64,000 bases of DNA from Salmonirosea aquatica (GTDB taxonomy: Bacteria; Bacteroidota; Bacteroidia; Cytophagales; Spirosomataceae): the NCBI RefSeq assembly GCF_009296315.1, contig NZ_WHLY01000002.1:1612001-1676000 (forward strand), in the 5' to 3' direction. Made by a program: the position numbers and the translations under genes. Below, in pieces: positions 35,164 through 47,459 of the stretch (the stretch's first letter is position 1; each line of letters begins with the position of its first letter). Under the pieces are notes generated by a model. The model saw only the letters and a program-made list of their open reading frames with translations. It made no database searches and was not told the DNA's origin.

Positions 35164-35260
35164 GTGTTGTTGTTTAATTGTGTAATTGTTGAACTGTTTG
35201 ATTTGTGTAATTGTCATTGAACAGAGAATCTTAAACAATTCAACCTTAAACAATTACACA
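35164..35260. repeat. Inverted heptad-repeat pair (TAATTGT class)
   Basis: The left arm has 7-bp units such as TTGTTGA, ACTGTTT, GATTTGT, GTAATTG. The right arm (about 35228-35260) is its rough inverse, ending CAATTACACA. The 20-mer at 35178-35197 recurs exactly at 51401-51420. Confidence 0.65.
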
Positions 35261-39884: not shown

Positions 39885-41393
39885 ATGAATAAACCACCCC
39901 TCTCGCTTTTAATTTTTTTCATCCTGCTTTTCGGTACCTTCCTGCTGCAAAGTTGTGGAGAGGATCAAGCTTACACTTTTGAAAAATTTAACGAGCAAGC
40001 ACTGGATTTTGCCAAAGACGATCAGCTCATTGACCAACAGGAGTATGAAACCCTGACGCAGGGTATTCAAAGCTCCGACGACCGGAGCTTCCGTACCCTT
40101 AAAAATGAAAACGGCGAAGTGGATCACGGCAAGGTAGCCGCCTACCTGAAAAAGTATTTCGACGCCAAGGGTATCCCCGTAATCGATATTTGGAAACCCG
40201 GCACTGCTTCAGGTACCTCTGCCAATTTCAACGTCAGCGTCTATCTGGAAAACTCCGTCAGCATGGATGGCTACGTCGATGCCAACTCCACGGCTTTCAA
40301 AGCGACCCTACTCGACCTGCTGACCAACCTTGAAAACTTCGCGGCCACGGATACCCTGAACCTGAACTACATCAACTCCACGATTATTCCGGTCAAAGCG
40401 GCGGCCACCAAAGATGACATTACCGAGTTTTATCAAAATCTGAACCGGACCAATTTCAAATCGCAGGGTGGCACGCGGGGTACCTCCGACATCGGTGACG
40501 TACTCAGTAAAATCCTCAATCAGCAGAAGCCCCATGAACTTTCCGTTTTGGTTTCCGATTTCGTATTTTCGCCCGGTGGGCAAAACGCGGTGAAGTACCT
40601 CGAAGGACAGCGCTCCCAGATCCGAAGTGAGTTCGTGGCCGCCCGTGGGAAAAACCCTAACTTGTCGGTGGCTATTCTGCAAGGACAGGCGCAGTTTGAA
40701 GGTACCTATTACGACCAGAACGACAAGCCCCATGCGAAGCTCGACGCCGCGCGGCCCTACTACCTATGGCTGATCGGTACCGCCGCGCAGATTCAGCAGG
40801 TGCTGGACGCCCGGATTCTGGAGCAAACCCGGAATGGATTTTCCAACAAACTGGTGATTCAGTCGGCGAGCGAGGCCTTGCAGCCACCTTTCAAAATCAT
40901 GTACCGTCCCCGCATCGGGGAGTTCGATTCGAAATCGCTGGCACAGGGCATCATTACCGACGCGCAGGCCGCCCGAGACGACCGAAACAAAGGCATATTT
41001 GAGTTCAATGTGGCGGTGAATTTTTCCAAAGGCATGCAGGACGCAGGGTACTTTCTGGATAGCACCAATTACAAATTGAGCAACGAAAAATATAGCCTCC
41101 GAGCCAAAACCATCAATGATCGGAACGATCCGTCGCTGAGCGGCTTTACCCATTTGCTGACCCTACGCACCACCGATCTGAAGGACGAAAAACTGCGAAT
41201 CGACGTGGTAGGCAAGGTACCCGGCTGGGTGTATACCACTTCTTCCGAAGACGACACCCAGATAGAAACCAACGCCGACGAAGCCCGCAAAACCTTCGGC
41301 TTCAGCTATCTGGTGGAAGGCGTCAGCGATGCTTTTTACCCCCGTTCACAAGCCAATCCTTTGTATACCATCCCTCTCACCATCCAAAAATAA
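39885..41393 (+). CDS. vWA-like lipoprotein, first gene of tubulin-actin-MotAB cluster
   Basis: 502 residues. The leader ends in lipobox LLQSC (Cys24), so the mature protein is a lipid-anchored envelope protein. Residues about 115-300 look like a von Willebrand A/Rossmann domain: NVSVYLENSVSM at 116-127 is at the place of the MIDAS DxSxS but begins with Glu122; GTSDIGDVL near 199 could supply the MIDAS threonine; LSVLVSDFVFSP near 219 matches the third metal strand. The remaining 200 residues have beta-rich segments (FEFNVAVNFSKGM, GFTHLLTLRTTDL). No protease or kinase motif is seen. It is separated from the next gene by 5 bp. It could be a periplasmic metal- or ligand-binding sensor or adaptor; assignment rests on motif pattern only. 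Confidence 0.72.
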   Translation: MNKPPLSLLIFFILLFGTFLLQSCGEDQAYTFEKFNEQALDFAKDDQLIDQQEYETLTQGIQSSDDRSFRTLKNENGEVDHGKVAAYLKKYFDAKGIPVIDIWKPGTASGTSANFNVSVYLENSVSMDGYVDANSTAFKATLLDLLTNLENFAATDTLNLNYINSTIIPVKAAATKDDITEFYQNLNRTNFKSQGGTRGTSDIGDVLSKILNQQKPHELSVLVSDFVFSPGGQNAVKYLEGQRSQIRSEFVAARGKNPNLSVAILQGQAQFEGTYYDQNDKPHAKLDAARPYYLWLIGTAAQIQQVLDARILEQTRNGFSNKLVIQSASEALQPPFKIMYRPRIGEFDSKSLAQGIITDAQAARDDRNKGIFEFNVAVNFSKGMQDAGYFLDSTNYKLSNEKYSLRAKTINDRNDPSLSGFTHLLTLRTTDLKDEKLRIDVVGKVPGWVYTTSSEDDTQIETNADEARKTFGFSYLVEGVSDAFYPRSQANPLYTIPLTIQK

Positions 41394-41398
41394 TCCTC

Positions 41399-41860
41399 AT
41401 GCAAGAAGTATTTGCCAAGATATACGAATGGTTCGGCCTGATTCCCTTCTATTCCAAGGACATGGGCGACCACCTGCGCGGCTTCGACGTCACCTGTACC
41501 GATTTCATCGCCACGCCCTGGTACAGCTACATCGGCTGGATCATGCTCGTGACGACGGCCTTCACCTTTGCCCTGCAATACTACATCGTCGATAGCTCGC
41601 GTTACAATAAAGCCCGGCACTGGTGGTTTTTCGCGCTGGGACTGGTGTTGCTCAATTTTCTGATTGCCTTCGCCATTCCTTACAACGACATTCAGGACAA
41701 TAATTTTTGCAACCAACTCAAACTGAACGTTTCGGACTGCGTCGGCTTTGGCTTTTCCAACGCGTTGTGGAGCCTGATTTTTTTCATCATCATCAGTACC
41801 ATTCCCATTTTCCGGTCGCGTAGCACCAATTGCCGGCATACCACTTTCTGGAAACCGTGA
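41399..41860 (+). CDS. Small polytopic membrane protein of the cluster
   Basis: 153 residues. Three hydrophobic segments are visible near 42-62 (YSYIGWIMLVTTAFTFAL), 76-95 (WWFFALGLVLLNFLIAFAI) and 118-138 (SNALWSLIFFIIISTIPIF). A loop contains two cysteines (NNFCNQLKLNVSDC), which could form a disulfide if periplasmic. I do not recognise the family. Gene spacing (5 bp after the vWA-like lipoprotein) argues for coupling; it probably anchors or relays to that lipoprotein in the inner membrane (inference). Confidence 0.72.
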   Translation: MQEVFAKIYEWFGLIPFYSKDMGDHLRGFDVTCTDFIATPWYSYIGWIMLVTTAFTFALQYYIVDSSRYNKARHWWFFALGLVLLNFLIAFAIPYNDIQDNNFCNQLKLNVSDCVGFGFSNALWSLIFFIIISTIPIFRSRSTNCRHTTFWKP

Positions 41861-41863
41861 GGT

Positions 41864-41889
41864 AATGATGAGTGATGAAGGATGAATGG
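41864..41889. repeat. Left heptad arm of four-helix-bundle insert
   Basis: Units AATGATG, AGTGATG, AAGGATG, AATGG run at exact 7-bp spacing directly after the preceding stop codon. The inverse array is at 42282-42309. Confidence 0.7.
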
Positions 41890-41904
41890 TTAAAATCTTA
41901 GCCA

Positions 41905-42273
41905 ATGGAAGATAAGAACGTCATTCGTAGAAAATCGTTTGATTTTGCTGTGCGGATAGTGAAGCTATGCCAGTTTGTTAGCAAGAATCATCATGAGACT
42001 GTATTAACCAGTCAGTTACTTAAATCGGGCACTTCAATTGGTGCCAATGTCCGGGAATCCACTAATGCAGAATCTGGGGCTGATTTTATTCACAAGTTTG
42101 GAATAGCCCAAAAAGAATGTAATGAAACACTCTACTGGCTTGAACTTATGAAAGCAACAGGGTACCTCACTGAAAATGAGTTAGATTCGATAATAAAAGA
42201 TTGCAATGAACTGATGAAAATCATCAGGAGTATAATCTTGACAAGAAAAGCCAATTTAAAAAAAGAAAGGTGA
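41905..42273 (+). CDS. Four-helix-bundle protein (S23/IVP family) inserted in the cluster
   Basis: 122 residues. The family signature is evident: RRKSFDFAVRIVKLCQFV near residue 8, LTSQLLKSGTSIGANVRESTNAESGADFIHKFGIAQKECNETLYWLELM near 35-83, and NELMKIIRSIILT near the end. Homologues occur within 23S rRNA intervening sequences, beside diversity-generating retroelements (Avd-like) and as orphan genes. Here it is bounded by inverted heptad-repeat arms and is more AT-rich than its neighbours, so it looks like an inserted unit rather than a component of the machine. Its direction matches the operon and it leaves flanking genes intact. Confidence 0.85.
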   Translation: MEDKNVIRRKSFDFAVRIVKLCQFVSKNHHETVLTSQLLKSGTSIGANVRESTNAESGADFIHKFGIAQKECNETLYWLELMKATGYLTENELDSIIKDCNELMKIIRSIILTRKANLKKER

Positions 42274-42281
42274 TAAAAATC

Positions 42282-42309
42282 TGAAACTCATCACTCATAA
42301 TTCATCATT
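42282..42309. repeat. Right heptad arm of four-helix-bundle insert
   Basis: On the minus strand it reads AATGATG, AATTATG, AGTGATG, AGTTTCA, the inverse of the arm at 41864-41889. It ends 7 bp before the tubulin-like gene. Confidence 0.7.
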
Positions 42310-42315
42310 AAAAAA

Positions 42316-43821
42316 ATGGCTCGTTTATTCATATTTGCAATTGGGGGTACCGGTTCGAGGGTACTCAAATCTTTGACCATGTTGCTGGCTGCCGGCGTGA
42401 AACCGAATTCTCAGAATGAATTCGAGATCGTGCCCATCATTATCGATCCGCACAAGTCCAACGAGGATTTGAAACGGACCGCGCGGATGCTGGAAAATTA
42501 CCAGGCCATCGCCGAGCGGGCGGGGGCTGACAGCGGTTTTTTCAGTACGCGCATCACGACGCTCGACAAGCTGGTAACCTCACAAAACCGCCTTTCGGGA
42601 AGTTTTACGTTCAATTTGCAGCAGGTATCCAACACGCAGTTCAAGGACTACATCGACTTTGCGCAACTCAGCGATCCGAGCCGGGCGCTAGCCGATATTC
42701 TGTTTTCGGGCAAGTCCATCAACAAGCGCGACGAGGAAGTGAATCTGCTGGACGTGGAAATGGACATCGGTTTTGTGGGCAATCCCAACATCGGGAGCGT
42801 GGTGCTGAACCAGTTCAAGGATTCGGAAGAATTCAAGGAGGTAGCTTCCAATTTCAACGCCGACGACCGGATTTTTATCATCAGTTCCATCTTTGGTGGT
42901 ACAGGCGCGGCGGGTTTTCCGACGATCCTGAAAAATATCCGCGACGCGATGAACAACCGCAACATCGACGGCAAGGGATTTCTGCAAAATGCTAAGATTG
43001 GCGCTATTACGGTACTCCCCTACTTCAATATTGAAAAAGACCCGAACAGCCCGATCCAGAAATCGGACTTCATTGCCAAGTCCAAAGCCGCGTTGTACTA
43101 CTACAAGGACAATGTGACGGGTAATAATTCGGTGAACGCGCTCTATTACATTACCGATGACTACAGCGGCAAGCCCTATAAAAACGACGCGGGCAACGAA
43201 GGCCAGAAAAACGACGCGCATTTTGTGGAACTAGCTTCGGCGCTGGCGATTCTGGACTTCCTGGAAATGCCCGACCGAGAGTTGGAATCGGTGGATGGCA
43301 AAGCTCTGAAACCTGTCTACAAGGAATTCGGTATGAAGACCGATGCACCGGACTTCAAATTTTCCGATTTTGAGGATAATACCGAGTACAAAATCAGCCT
43401 GCGCCTATCGCAACTGGCCATGTTCCGCAAGTACCTTGACGAACGCATCGGCGACGCTATCGAAAAGCAGGCGTGGAGCAACGACGCACCTACCATTGAC
43501 CGCGCTTTCCTGAGCGATTCGTTTTATCGTACCAACCTGTCGGAATTCATGACTTCGTTCGGTGATTGGCTGAAAGAAATGTCGGGCAACCGGCGCGGTT
43601 TTACGCCTTTCAACCTGAATTCCACGCTGGATTCGCTGGTGGTAGACAAATCGGTCAAAACGGGATGGCTGGAAAAGAAAGTAGATTATCCTTTTTACGA
43701 CGATAACCTGAGCAAGCAGTCTAAAGGCAAGAATTTCCCCTCGGCGGAGCAGAAAATGATCAAGCTCTTTTTCGATACCACGGAAGACATGCTGACCGCC
43801 AAATTCGGTTTTAAGAAGTAG
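42316..43821 (+). CDS. Tubulin/FtsZ-superfamily GTPase-like protein
   Basis: 501 residues, no leader or membrane segment. The N-terminal nucleotide-binding loop is MARLFIFAIGGTGSRVLKSL (Gly10-Gly11-Thr12-Gly13), the next strand ends IIIDPHKSN, and the tubulin signature appears as IISSIFGGTGAAGFP with GGTGAAG at 194-200, matching GGGTGTG/S. This corresponds to the divergent bacterial Tubulin_2-type proteins. The C-terminal half is all-helical and lacks a clear FtsZ activation domain (NxDxxD), so its polymerisation is uncertain. It probably binds GTP and may form filaments at the inner membrane. It lies in the cluster between the membrane protein and the actin-like ATPase, which has not been reported for plasmid TubZ systems. 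Confidence 0.82.
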   Translation: MARLFIFAIGGTGSRVLKSLTMLLAAGVKPNSQNEFEIVPIIIDPHKSNEDLKRTARMLENYQAIAERAGADSGFFSTRITTLDKLVTSQNRLSGSFTFNLQQVSNTQFKDYIDFAQLSDPSRALADILFSGKSINKRDEEVNLLDVEMDIGFVGNPNIGSVVLNQFKDSEEFKEVASNFNADDRIFIISSIFGGTGAAGFPTILKNIRDAMNNRNIDGKGFLQNAKIGAITVLPYFNIEKDPNSPIQKSDFIAKSKAALYYYKDNVTGNNSVNALYYITDDYSGKPYKNDAGNEGQKNDAHFVELASALAILDFLEMPDRELESVDGKALKPVYKEFGMKTDAPDFKFSDFEDNTEYKISLRLSQLAMFRKYLDERIGDAIEKQAWSNDAPTIDRAFLSDSFYRTNLSEFMTSFGDWLKEMSGNRRGFTPFNLNSTLDSLVVDKSVKTGWLEKKVDYPFYDDNLSKQSKGKNFPSAEQKMIKLFFDTTEDMLTAKFGFKK

Positions 43822-43825
43822 ATTT

Positions 43826-43856
43826 CTGATGGCTGATCGCTATTGGCCATTAGCTC
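43826..43856. repeat. Left heptad arm between tubulin-like and actin-like genes
   Basis: Units CTGATGG, CTGATCG, CTATTGG, CCATTAG, CTC. The inverse arm is at 43941-43972; about 85 bp lie between and show no gene. Confidence 0.6.
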
Positions 43857-43940
43857 AAAAAAAGCCCTGACAATCTGTCCGTTACAGTTGTGACTTTTTA
43901 TAAAAAAGAAAATCAGGCAGTTATATTTACAATCAAAAAA

Positions 43941-43972
43941 AGCCAATAGCTATTAGCTATCAGCCAACAGCT
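43941..43972. repeat. Right heptad arm between tubulin-like and actin-like genes
   Basis: Units AGCCAAT, AGCTATT, AGCTATC, AGCCAAC, AGCT end 8 bp before the ATG of the actin-like gene. Confidence 0.6.
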
Positions 43973-43979
43973 AAAAAAT

Positions 43980-46900
43980 ATGAGCAAAATATTCGGCCAT
44001 ACCAACCGGGGCGGCAAGGATTGGTTTCTCTCTGATGCCTACTCCGACAAAGAAATCGAGTCGATCAAAGATCCCGAAGGCGGCAGCGGCGATTCGCTTT
44101 CGCCCGCTATCCCCAGTCCCTTCGCGCGCATCGACCTGGCCAAATCGGCCTTTCGCAACATCAACAAAACGCCCGACCTGAAAGCCTACACCACCAACGG
44201 CAATGTACTGGCGAGCCGGATGGACGAAAAGCTGGTATCGAACTGCCTCGACCTGGCCGAGATGCTGTTCAACAGCGACAGTTTGCGGGAGAATATGCGG
44301 ATCATCGTGTGGGACAAAAACGCCGAGATTTCAAGAATGAAAGCCTCGTCCGATGCGCACCGTCGCCTGGCCGAAACGCTGGAACTATACCTGCAGCAGG
44401 ATAAGGAATCGTATAATTTCGACTTGCTAAGGCGACTCTACCTCATCGAGTTCAACCACAAAATCATCGGTTGTTCTTCGCCCGCGACGCTCTTTTTCCC
44501 AACGGCAAACGACCTCAGCCACGCCCAGATCAAGCTAACCAAAAACGATGTTCTGTTCGACAATCACTATGTGCCATTGTACGAACGGGAAGCCGAATTT
44601 CAAAAATATTTCCATCACCTGTTCCGCGCCAATCCGTTGCTGGCCAGTAAGATGAAGGTGGTAAATGACTACCTGGCCAAGAATCTAGCGATTCTCGATC
44701 GGAGGAATCACGCGCTCTACCAGGAAATCAACAAACTTAATCCTGCCGCTTTTTTGAACAATTACTCGGAACTGGATACGGGGGCCGCGGGCGATGTGAT
44801 CGAGGTCATCGGGGTACCTTTGCGGAAGCGTAAAAAGGAAGACATCCTGGGTTCGATCGGAGAGAGTGATTTCCGCATCAATGCTTCCAAAAGTCTGGCG
44901 GGTGCGCCGCCGCTGGTATTGCAGAATAACTTTAATAAACGCCTCCGCTACGTCAACGACGACTGGGATCACACCATCGAGGTACCCTACGCCGATTCGG
45001 AAACCGTTTTGGAAAAACGCAGTCTGCCCGGTGCCCGGATTCAGTACCCTTACCTCACCGTCAGCGACTTTCTGGAACCCTACCTCATCCGGCTGGTGTA
45101 CCCCATCAACAAGGAAAAGTTTTTCGATGGCAACGTAAATCCCGAGGTAGGCGACGATTCTCAAGGATTTTTACTACCGCTCAAAAAACAGTTTTTCGAG
45201 TATTTCACTCCCAACGATCTGCTGGGTGCCGGGCCGGGAAAACCCAGTATCGAGATGACCCAGGGCGTGGCCGGGTCGGTGAAAGTGACGCTGCGTATCC
45301 CGATCATGCGGGAGGGCGAGTACATCGCCTTCGAGCGGACCTACTACCAATCGCTGGAACATCAGATTTCGAAGCCCGACGAGGCTGCCAACAAAGGCGT
45401 CGTAGTGGAGCAGCAGGTCGGTCTGACACTCTTTCCCTTCGTCAAGACCAACATCCCCGATCTGGCTTCGCCCTACCGCGTGCAGGTTATTGACCGGAAC
45501 GTGGCGGGTGTGTTCAAGAATTCCGAGTACGTGCTGCAGTTTTTCAGTCAGCGCTCCAATGTACCCATCAAGGTCATCAACGAAGAAACGGCCAACTCAG
45601 GCAAGCCTCGCAAACGTACCCGCAAGCAGGCCGCCGATGCCACGACGCAGTACTACGTGCTGAACGATGAGTTTGACTACATCTACCTCAACGACGCCGG
45701 GCAAGTGGACATGGGCGGAGTAATCATTCCCAAATGGCCGCATTTTGCGAATGGCAACACCGTTTTCACGTTCGCGCTGGACTTTGGTACCACCAATACG
45801 CATATCGAGTACAAGGCGGGCGCTTCTGCACCGAAAGCTTTCGACATCACGGTGGAAGATATGCAGATCGCCACGCTGTTCGATCCGGCCAAGACGAGCG
45901 AAGACTTTGGCGGTTCGGGGGCCATCGCTATCCGCGAATTTGTGGACTATGAGTTCCTGCCCGAGCAACTGGGGGGTACCAACCGCTTCAAATTCCCGAC
46001 CCGGACGGTTTCGGGCGAAGGCAAAGATCTGGATCTGAACAAGGAAACCAACAGTCTGGCCGATTTCAATATTCCGTTCACGTACGAGAAAACGCACGAT
46101 GGGGTCAACGAAATTAAGTCAAACCTGAAATGGGCCAAGGTAGAGCCGGGCAACACCAAGCGCATCCGGGCCTATTTCGAAACGCTACTCCTGATGATGC
46201 GCACCAAGGTACTTCGCAACGGCGGCAACCTGCACGAAACCCGGCTGGTGTGGTTTTATCCCAGCAGCATGACCAACAACCGCAAGGACAGTCTGGAAGG
46301 CCTAATCAACGATTTATTCGCGAAATACTTCAAAGGCACCAACACGCCCATCGGCATCAGCGAGTCGCTCGCGCCTTTCTATTACTATAAAAATACGGGT
46401 CAATTGCCGGGGGGTACCTACTCGCCCGTCGTGTCCATTGATATCGGGGGAGGTACCACCGATGTGGTGGTTTTCAAAGCTAACAAACCTATTCTGCTGT
46501 CATCGTTCAAGTTTGCGGCCAACGCTATTTTTGGGGATGGTTTCTACGAGTTTGGGGCTACTTCGAACGGGCTCATTAAGAAGTACACGCAGCATTACGA
46601 AATGCTGCTAAGTGCCAACAAGCAGTACGATCTGATGAAGGTACTGGATTCGATCAAGGACAAAAACAAATCCGAGGACATCATCGCCTTCCTGTTCTCG
46701 CTCGAAAACAACTACCGTATCCGCGACGCCAGCCTGTTTTCATTCAATTCGCTGCTGTCCGAAGACAAGGATTACAAGATCATTTTCCTGTATTTCTATT
46801 CGGCCATCATGTACCACGTGGCGCAGCTGATGAAAATCAAGTTGCCCGATACGGAAATGCCGAAAAATATTGTCTTCAGCGGTACGGGTTCCAAAATCCT

Positions 46901-47459
46901 GCGCATCCTGACCCGCAATCAGAAAACGCTTTCGGAACTTTCCGAACGCATTTTTGAAGCGGTTTTTGAGAAAGAATTCGGGTACGACAATCTGGTGATC
47001 AAAGCCGAAAAAGATATTCCGAAAGAACTGACTTGCAAGGGCGGGCTCATGACCAACCCCGAAGATCTGGACATCAATATCAAGAAAATAAAATCGGTGC
47101 TGACGGGCCTGGAAGACCAGTCCATCACCCAGCTCCGCTACTCCGATCTGACTAACGATGTGCAGAAGGAAATCACCGACTACGTGGCCGATTTCAATGA
47201 GTTGTTTCTCGATTTAAACAAAAAGATGAGTTTCTCGGATAACTTCGGGGTATCGTATGATTCCCTGGAAATTTTCCGCAATAACATGAACCGTCATCTG
47301 CGCGACTACCTGGCCGAGGGGCTGGATTACACCAAAAAGCTGGATGAGGTACGTTCGGACGAGAAAGAAGTGGAGGAAACGCTGTTCTTCTATCCAATTA
47401 TCGGTATCATCAACCATCTTTCGAAGCAGCTGGCCGAGTTGACGCCCGTGACCAGTTAA
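43980..47459 (+). CDS. Large actin/Hsp70-superfamily ATPase (possibly SrfB-like)
   Basis: 1159 residues, no leader. The ATPase core occupies about residues 595-1060: phosphate-1 loop FALDFGTTNTHIEY with Asp601, phosphate-2 loop SIDIGGGTTDVVVF with Asp821, and adenosine motif VFSGTGSKIL with Gly968. Thus all three actin/Hsp70/sugar-kinase signatures are present, so ATP binding is likely. The first 595 residues form an unknown extension that ends in a basic linker (KPRKRTRKQAAD). The last 100 residues are charged helices. The size and layout recall the SrfB virulence-factor family, which I cannot confirm without a profile search. It probably works with the tubulin-like protein upstream and the membrane motor downstream. 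Confidence 0.82.
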   Translation: MSKIFGHTNRGGKDWFLSDAYSDKEIESIKDPEGGSGDSLSPAIPSPFARIDLAKSAFRNINKTPDLKAYTTNGNVLASRMDEKLVSNCLDLAEMLFNSDSLRENMRIIVWDKNAEISRMKASSDAHRRLAETLELYLQQDKESYNFDLLRRLYLIEFNHKIIGCSSPATLFFPTANDLSHAQIKLTKNDVLFDNHYVPLYEREAEFQKYFHHLFRANPLLASKMKVVNDYLAKNLAILDRRNHALYQEINKLNPAAFLNNYSELDTGAAGDVIEVIGVPLRKRKKEDILGSIGESDFRINASKSLAGAPPLVLQNNFNKRLRYVNDDWDHTIEVPYADSETVLEKRSLPGARIQYPYLTVSDFLEPYLIRLVYPINKEKFFDGNVNPEVGDDSQGFLLPLKKQFFEYFTPNDLLGAGPGKPSIEMTQGVAGSVKVTLRIPIMREGEYIAFERTYYQSLEHQISKPDEAANKGVVVEQQVGLTLFPFVKTNIPDLASPYRVQVIDRNVAGVFKNSEYVLQFFSQRSNVPIKVINEETANSGKPRKRTRKQAADATTQYYVLNDEFDYIYLNDAGQVDMGGVIIPKWPHFANGNTVFTFALDFGTTNTHIEYKAGASAPKAFDITVEDMQIATLFDPAKTSEDFGGSGAIAIREFVDYEFLPEQLGGTNRFKFPTRTVSGEGKDLDLNKETNSLADFNIPFTYEKTHDGVNEIKSNLKWAKVEPGNTKRIRAYFETLLLMMRTKVLRNGGNLHETRLVWFYPSSMTNNRKDSLEGLINDLFAKYFKGTNTPIGISESLAPFYYYKNTGQLPGGTYSPVVSIDIGGGTTDVVVFKANKPILLSSFKFAANAIFGDGFYEFGATSNGLIKKYTQHYEMLLSANKQYDLMKVLDSIKDKNKSEDIIAFLFSLENNYRIRDASLFSFNSLLSEDKDYKIIFLYFYSAIMYHVAQLMKIKLPDTEMPKNIVFSGTGSKILRILTRNQKTLSELSERIFEAVFEKEFGYDNLVIKAEKDIPKELTCKGGLMTNPEDLDINIKKIKSVLTGLEDQSITQLRYSDLTNDVQKEITDYVADFNELFLDLNKKMSFSDNFGVSYDSLEIFRNNMNRHLRDYLAEGLDYTKKLDEVRSDEKEVEETLFFYPIIGIINHLSKQLAELTPVTS

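Follow-up and report, generated by a model that had tools for sequence, protein, structure and literature searches.

The intervening sequence (IVS) in the 23S rRNA of Coxiella is described as having a 28-bp terminal stem and an S23p gene, with excision by RNase III and tandem heptamers directly upstream of the gene (PMC4990558). Leptospira is also named there for 23S rRNA IVSs bearing S23p, and what S23p does and how the rRNA IVSs arose are both called unclear in the same source (PMC4990558). Heptamer repeats with the unit TAACTGA are reported from Beggiatoaceae, cyanobacteria, and Bacteroidetes as intergenic, tandem, and patchy over phyla, and are described without an evident transfer mechanism (PMC4679880). 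The protein family PF05635 is stated to resemble Avd of diversity-generating retroelements (PMC10053308), and 18 genes named 23S_rRNA_IVP have been reported from cas loci (PMC3936711). The P6b region of the trnL intron is described as carrying heptanucleotide repeats inside a stem-loop. Cyanobacterial STRRs are short tandem heptanucleotide repeats as well, and to our knowledge neither they nor the P6b repeats are linked with the S23/IVP gene family. No title or abstract retrieved from an open-access literature collection dealt with mirrored heptads flanking S23/IVP genes; closest was the report of the direct heptamers in the Coxiella IVS (PMC4990558).

The element analyzed here lies at 41863–42310 of the window, which is the whole 64,000-nt stretch of Salmonirosea aquatica DNA under study, between two genes of an operon; the arms, the enclosed gene, and the two flanking genes are on the plus strand. 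The upstream gene (41399–41860) encodes a small membrane protein of 153 aa with a sub-threshold Pfam match to Claudin_3 (22.9 bits against 28.7), and the downstream gene (42316–43821) encodes a tubulin-like protein of 501 aa, for which the Tubulin_2 and Tubulin matches were both sub-threshold. The left arm (41863–41889) is composed of imperfect 7-nt units of the TGATGAG type (TGATGAG, TGATGAA, and GGATGAA) and starts 3 nt past the upstream stop, and the right arm (42288–42310) holds the units in inverted copy (CATCACT, CATAATT, and CATCATT) and stops 5 nt short of the start codon at 42316. Positions 41863–41885 and 42288–42310 form an inverted pair of 23 nt with 83% complementarity and a spacing of 402 nt. 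This confirmed an earlier description of the locus made from its letters and open reading frames (the sequence-only reading), in which inverted arms of 7-nt units were said to surround an S23/IVP gene between two operon genes. That gene (41905–42273) occupies the loop position and encodes a four-helix-bundle protein of 122 aa, which belongs to both PF05635 (99.1 bits; cut-off, 33.8) and TIGR02436 (109.4 bits; cut-off, 24). Its sole strong solved relative was PDB 2rld (E value, 2e-31), a single entry with five chains. The operon as a whole (39885–47459) encodes proteins of 502, 153, 501 (tubulin-like), and 1159 aa, and relatives of the 502-aa protein often sit before the tubulin-like gene across the bacterial family.

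The window element shares with the 23S rRNA IVSs its protein family and a gene-bearing loop closed by a terminal stem (PMC4990558). The terminal inverted repeats that close a stem around an S23p gene were thus found, and the location in 23S rRNA was not: the described IVSs lie in helices 9, 25, or 45 of the rRNA, whereas the window element lies between two protein genes. The Coxiella heptamers are direct repeats of strain-variable number, unlike the mirrored arms of the window element, and it is for the Coxiella IVS that RNase III excision has been demonstrated (PMC4990558). The TAACTGA repeats are likewise intergenic, tandem, and patchy, but they have one unit, are direct with one inverted case, and lie mostly ahead of start codons; no four-helix-bundle gene, S23, or intervening sequence is mentioned with them (PMC4679880). 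The element differs from an insertion sequence or transposon in that the PF05635 gene is the single gene between the arms, there is no transposase, and the arm units vary from copy to copy. With respect to retroelements, no reverse transcriptase match was obtained among the five neighboring genes tested at the window locus. Based on the recurrence of this arrangement in the gene family, the cassette anatomy, the RNA fold, the cassette replacements in the leu operon, the frequent sense orientation between co-directional genes, and the published features of the Coxiella IVS, we regard the window element, with moderate confidence, as the equivalent of a 23S rRNA IVS standing on its own between two cistrons. 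It is a cassette of approximately 450 nt in which two inverted arrays of 7-nt units enclose a gene for a four-helix-bundle protein.

On its own, the arm pair of the window is only moderately unusual, as its ungapped inverted score of 12 was also attained by 6 of 72 control ORFs. RNA folding showed that the arms close the whole window element (−116.2 kcal/mol; z, −3.09), and none of 100 shuffles was as good. The same cassette is present at the same site in the sister genome (G016), in which the arms of this copy (L073) pair over 24 nt with an inverted score of 21. The arm pair is convincing because of the sister score, the RNA fold, and the same anatomy in many members of the gene family. Between the two genomes, 26 of 26 aligned columns of the left arm (41864–41889) and 23 of 23 of the right arm were the same, the latter beside a 7-nt gap, and the sister right arm had one additional heptad. 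The upstream gene was 83% identical, the family gene 92%, and the tubulin-like gene 86–91%, so that identity rises distinctly at the left end of the cassette and without a clear step at its right end. The dN/dS of the family gene was 0.057, and its dS was 0.37 compared with 0.94, 1.36, and 1.50 for three neighbors, which suggests that the cassette either has a more recent history or is constrained at the nucleic acid level. Rfam gave no match in eight loci scanned, among them the sister copy of the region (L144). The L001 site was rejected as a further comparison point because its flanking genes are non-syntenic in the sister genome and therefore uninformative. Searches at genus level covered the window's own genome alone.

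The family gene was found in 179 of 200 genomes of the window's bacterial family, with a maximum of 13 copies. The flanks were analyzed at a first set of 100 loci (three from the window's genome, 30 from its family, and 67 from named genomes), in which the window site is counted twice (L003 and L073), using 250-nt flanks and a score of at least 12 as the threshold. Period-7 arrays were detected in 34 of 98 left flanks and 25 of 100 right flanks, and each other shift from 4 to 15 gave 0–5 flanks, except the harmonic 14. Their density fell from 2.82 per kb in the first 100 nt beside the gene to 0.46 and then 0.20 over the following two 100-nt bins, and was 0.06–0.12 per kb past 300 nt. Inverted matches between the left and right flanks of the same locus reached the threshold at 62 of 98 loci, compared with 669 of 9506 mismatched pairs (7%) and with the same 6 of 72 other ORFs from these loci, and all of 10,000 permutations fell below the observed mean inverted own-flank score. 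Direct matches of own flanks (24/98 vs. 2.9% of other pairs) were above chance and fewer than inverted ones. All three family genes of the window's genome had inverted arms, scoring 12–15, and 864 kb of this genome contained just three period-7 arrays at the threshold. Arms together with the gene were seen in Bacteroidota, Cyanobacteriota, Chloroflexota, Gammaproteobacteria, and one spirochaete plasmid, several of these records being MAGs. The association of heptad arms with S23/IVP genes is general and not restricted to a single locus.

The search for such arms around other family genes, proposed in the sequence-only reading, gave a divided answer, as the remaining 36 of 98 loci stayed below the threshold; some of these have 8-nt units or degenerate arms. 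The sister genome had 10 family matches, of which eight were inspected and four reached the inverted threshold (three of seven without the window orthologue), but mirrored units were visible by eye in all seven further copies. Among 65 loci with neighbors on both sides, 56 lay between co-directional genes, 46 in the sense of both neighbors and 10 antisense, counts that stand without a background rate.

A second set consisted of 23 of the 25 records in a plasmid collection and both phage records (n = 25, mostly cyanobacterial), including the similar pairs L235/L236, L242/L244, and L231/L232. Period-7 arrays reached the threshold in 18 of the 25 flanks on each side, with no other shift doing so except the harmonic 14, and own inverted pairs reached the threshold at 21 of 25 loci compared with 9.8% of other pairs. 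No arms were found at the two phage loci. The plasmid family genes often lay within defense loci (L231, L232, L241, L242, L244, L245, L248, and L252). As in the published cas loci, the gene lay between cas2 and cas1 in L231 and L232, antisense to both neighbors, and before cas1 in L241, which has weak heptad arms; L231 and L232 carry mirrored heptad arms, whereas the accessible text of the cas-locus report leaves flanking repeats unmentioned (PMC3936711). In the other defense loci, the gene followed a DISARM-type helicase, separated helicase from methylase genes, or lay inside a restriction-modification operon.

The repeat units vary by locus and are mirrored within a locus (TTAATGG, AATTATG, TTAGTGA, GGCTGTC, AGGGGTT, GTCGGAA, and others). 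A unit could be called at 87 of 128 loci, eight of which had period 8, that is, 8-nt units; the list holds one sister-genome locus twice (L019 and L140). Similarity of units was correlated with similarity of proteins over the 79 loci with 7-nt units (r = 0.40; 0 of 2000 permutations as high) and also in comparisons between phyla (r = 0.375; 0/1000; mean of the permutations, 0.14), the phylum labels in the latter test being taken from record titles, many of them of MAGs. Across phyla the unit follows the protein, as would be expected if arms and gene were inherited together. Inside one family, the correlation for consensus units at 14 loci was not significant (r = 0.062; 328/1000), and with raw arms it was 0.129 (6/2000), where the top bin may contain same-site orthologues. 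When own arms were compared with arms swapped between corresponding leu sites, leaving out L225 as a near copy of L224, own arms gave the best match in 2/6 and 3/6 cases; the second gene of L228 was listed in this comparison under leuA|leuB, to which it does not belong. The order of units was mirrored above the shuffled mean at 39 of 46 loci, although p was ≤ 0.2 in just 18 of 46 and the alignment had been preselected as the best.

Family genes were also present in the leu operon, whose gene names are our reading of the proteins and not annotation. G016 had them at both leuC|leuD and leuA|leuB, and of six further genomes all had one at leuC|leuD and five also had one at leuA|leuB; L228 (G027) had a second family gene between leuD and leuA, and several adjoining mirrored heptad hairpins were seen around its leuC|leuD and leuD–leuA family genes. 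L224 and L226 share one genus label, and their LeuC, LeuD, and LeuB are 98.5–99.1% identical (dS, 0.32–0.42), the leuA of L226 being split in two frames with 91–96% identity to L224. Their inserted proteins, in contrast, are only 44% and 56% identical (dS, 1.5 and 2.0). In 40-column steps, DNA identity at leuC|leuD was 0.93–0.97 outside and 0.42–0.75 inside the insert, and at leuA|leuB it was 0.80–1.00 outside and 0.33–0.65 inside with one step of 0.88; at both spacers the breaks fell a few bases from the upstream stop and the next start. The nearest relatives of the L226 leuC|leuD protein were copies of other genera, the copy of its congener ranking outside the first nine. Since the Leu flanks are near-identical while the inserts diverge with breaks close to the arms, whole cassettes, arms included, appear to have been replaced at these two fixed spacers. 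The window's genome had no family gene at leuC|leuD, where the 31-nt spacer shows no visible arms, or at leuA|leuB (152-nt spacer). The arms and the gene largely behave as one cassette, and the sequence-only proposal that the arms are the ends of a transferable unit held to that extent: cassettes appear to have been swapped with breaks near the arms, the window's genome has neither the gene nor visible arms between leuC and leuD, and the gene is lacking from the window's site in the relatives described below.

As stated, the proposal was not supported in one respect: the arms are not exclusive ends of such a unit, as heptad stem-loops were also found without the gene. At the L002 site of the sister genome, synteny is intact and the gene is missing, and a gene-free hairpin with the unit type of L002 is present. 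The closest relative of the L002 gene is the one that the sister genome carries at hemB (71% identical), with arms of a similar unit (GGTTAAAG); the hemB-site cassette is absent from the window's genome, where the 103-nt spacer contains, by eye, a hairpin with another unit. Period-7 arms without a gene-sized loop were present in 20 of the 110 inverted repeats detected across 400 kb of G154 (other shifts, 0–6), and in G000 four were at shift 7 and five at shift 8 after removal of 23 masked-N rows. The window element shares inverted arms and period 7 with such mirrored stem-loops, but its loop carries a gene, unlike the G154 hairpins. The gene-free heptad hairpins may derive from gene-bearing forms by deletion, or they may be hairpins of a more basic type. 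Elsewhere in the window, a stem-loop without a gene (35179–35260) has perfect 12-nt arms (TGTGTAATTGTT and AACAATTACACA) and falls in an array of 8-nt units (35170–35214).

Relatives of the tubulin-like gene were identified in 80 of 200 genomes of the family, and the window's site was examined in 29 of these 80. None of the 28 other operons inspected had the four-helix-bundle gene there, so the gene does not keep the same place in all related operons; most of the 28 had a small ORF in the position of 41399–41860. A strong hairpin (z ≤ −2) stood directly before the tubulin-like start in 19 of these 28, compared with 0 of 28 control windows within the gene, and five (L047, L053, L055, L062, and L069) were judged by eye to be made of heptads. 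The same spacer in L049, L051, L056, L063, L066, L067, and L070 had long hairpins of other sequences, several of the GAGACGC type. The spacer at the window's site seems to keep acquiring hairpins in relatives. The strong hairpins in 19 of 28 operons, together with those of G154 and of the sister's L002 site, speak for an explanation in which heptad stem-loops are ordinary intercistronic elements growing by slippage in many spacers, whose tolerance of insertions lets four-helix-bundle genes enter the loops. We consider this rather unlikely, as arms were exchanged along with the gene at leuC|leuD and leuA|leuB, the gene-free leuC|leuD spacer of the window's genome has no visible arms, and all three family genes of that genome are armed despite only three period-7 arrays in 864 kb.

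Some copies of the family gene keep their position through several genera, and the leu-operon proteins are 56–67% identical at corresponding places in several genera. Along with the dN/dS value given above, this would be expected of a long-resident regulatory cistron that is kept vertically in operons, with arms serving as its own transcript-processing or terminator structures and patchiness reflecting loss. The leu-operon replacements weaken this explanation, which we judge improbable: congeneric genomes with near-identical flanking proteins hold such divergent inserts at the same spacers, the L226 leuC|leuD copy is nearer to other genera than to its congener, and none of the 28 other operons inspected carries the gene at the position that it has in the window. 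That the arms are unrelated low-complexity repeats brought together by chance would agree with the modest window score and its occurrence in control ORFs, but it is very improbable given the family-wide counts in two sets and the sister score.

The reading of the window element as an rRNA-IVS counterpart faces contrary observations of its own, namely the gene-free heptad stem-loops, the 36 of 98 loci and four of eight sister copies below the threshold, the armless phage loci, the 10 of 65 antisense loci, the unsharp identity step on the right (91% for that part of the tubulin-like gene vs. 92%), and the copies kept across genera. According to this IVS-counterpart reading, the arms would pair in the operon transcript, which would keep the insert nearly neutral between two cistrons. 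The paired arms could be a target of RNase III, and the protein, a pentamer in one studied relative, might bind its own stem-loop as RNA or single-stranded DNA. Such binding would help the cassette to persist and occasionally to move; enzymes for replication, recombination, or reverse transcription would have to come from elsewhere. Arm length probably shifts by slippage of whole units, and the arms are probably kept mirrored by hairpin-templated copying.

More broadly, and only tentatively, the S23/IVP family might be the protein of widespread minimal mobile stem-loop cassettes, whose ends are lineage-specific mirrored heptad or octad arrays and whose protein recognizes its own unit; the rRNA IVSs, the heptad repeats of cyanobacteria and Bacteroidota, and the gene-free hairpins would then be forms or remnants of this class. 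Separated arrays that match each other, with a unit differing per locus, raise the question of how the arms stay in step. Mirrored, cassette-specific heptad stem-loops around this family in several phyla tie together the role of S23p, the origin of the rRNA IVSs, and the spread of heptamer repeats.
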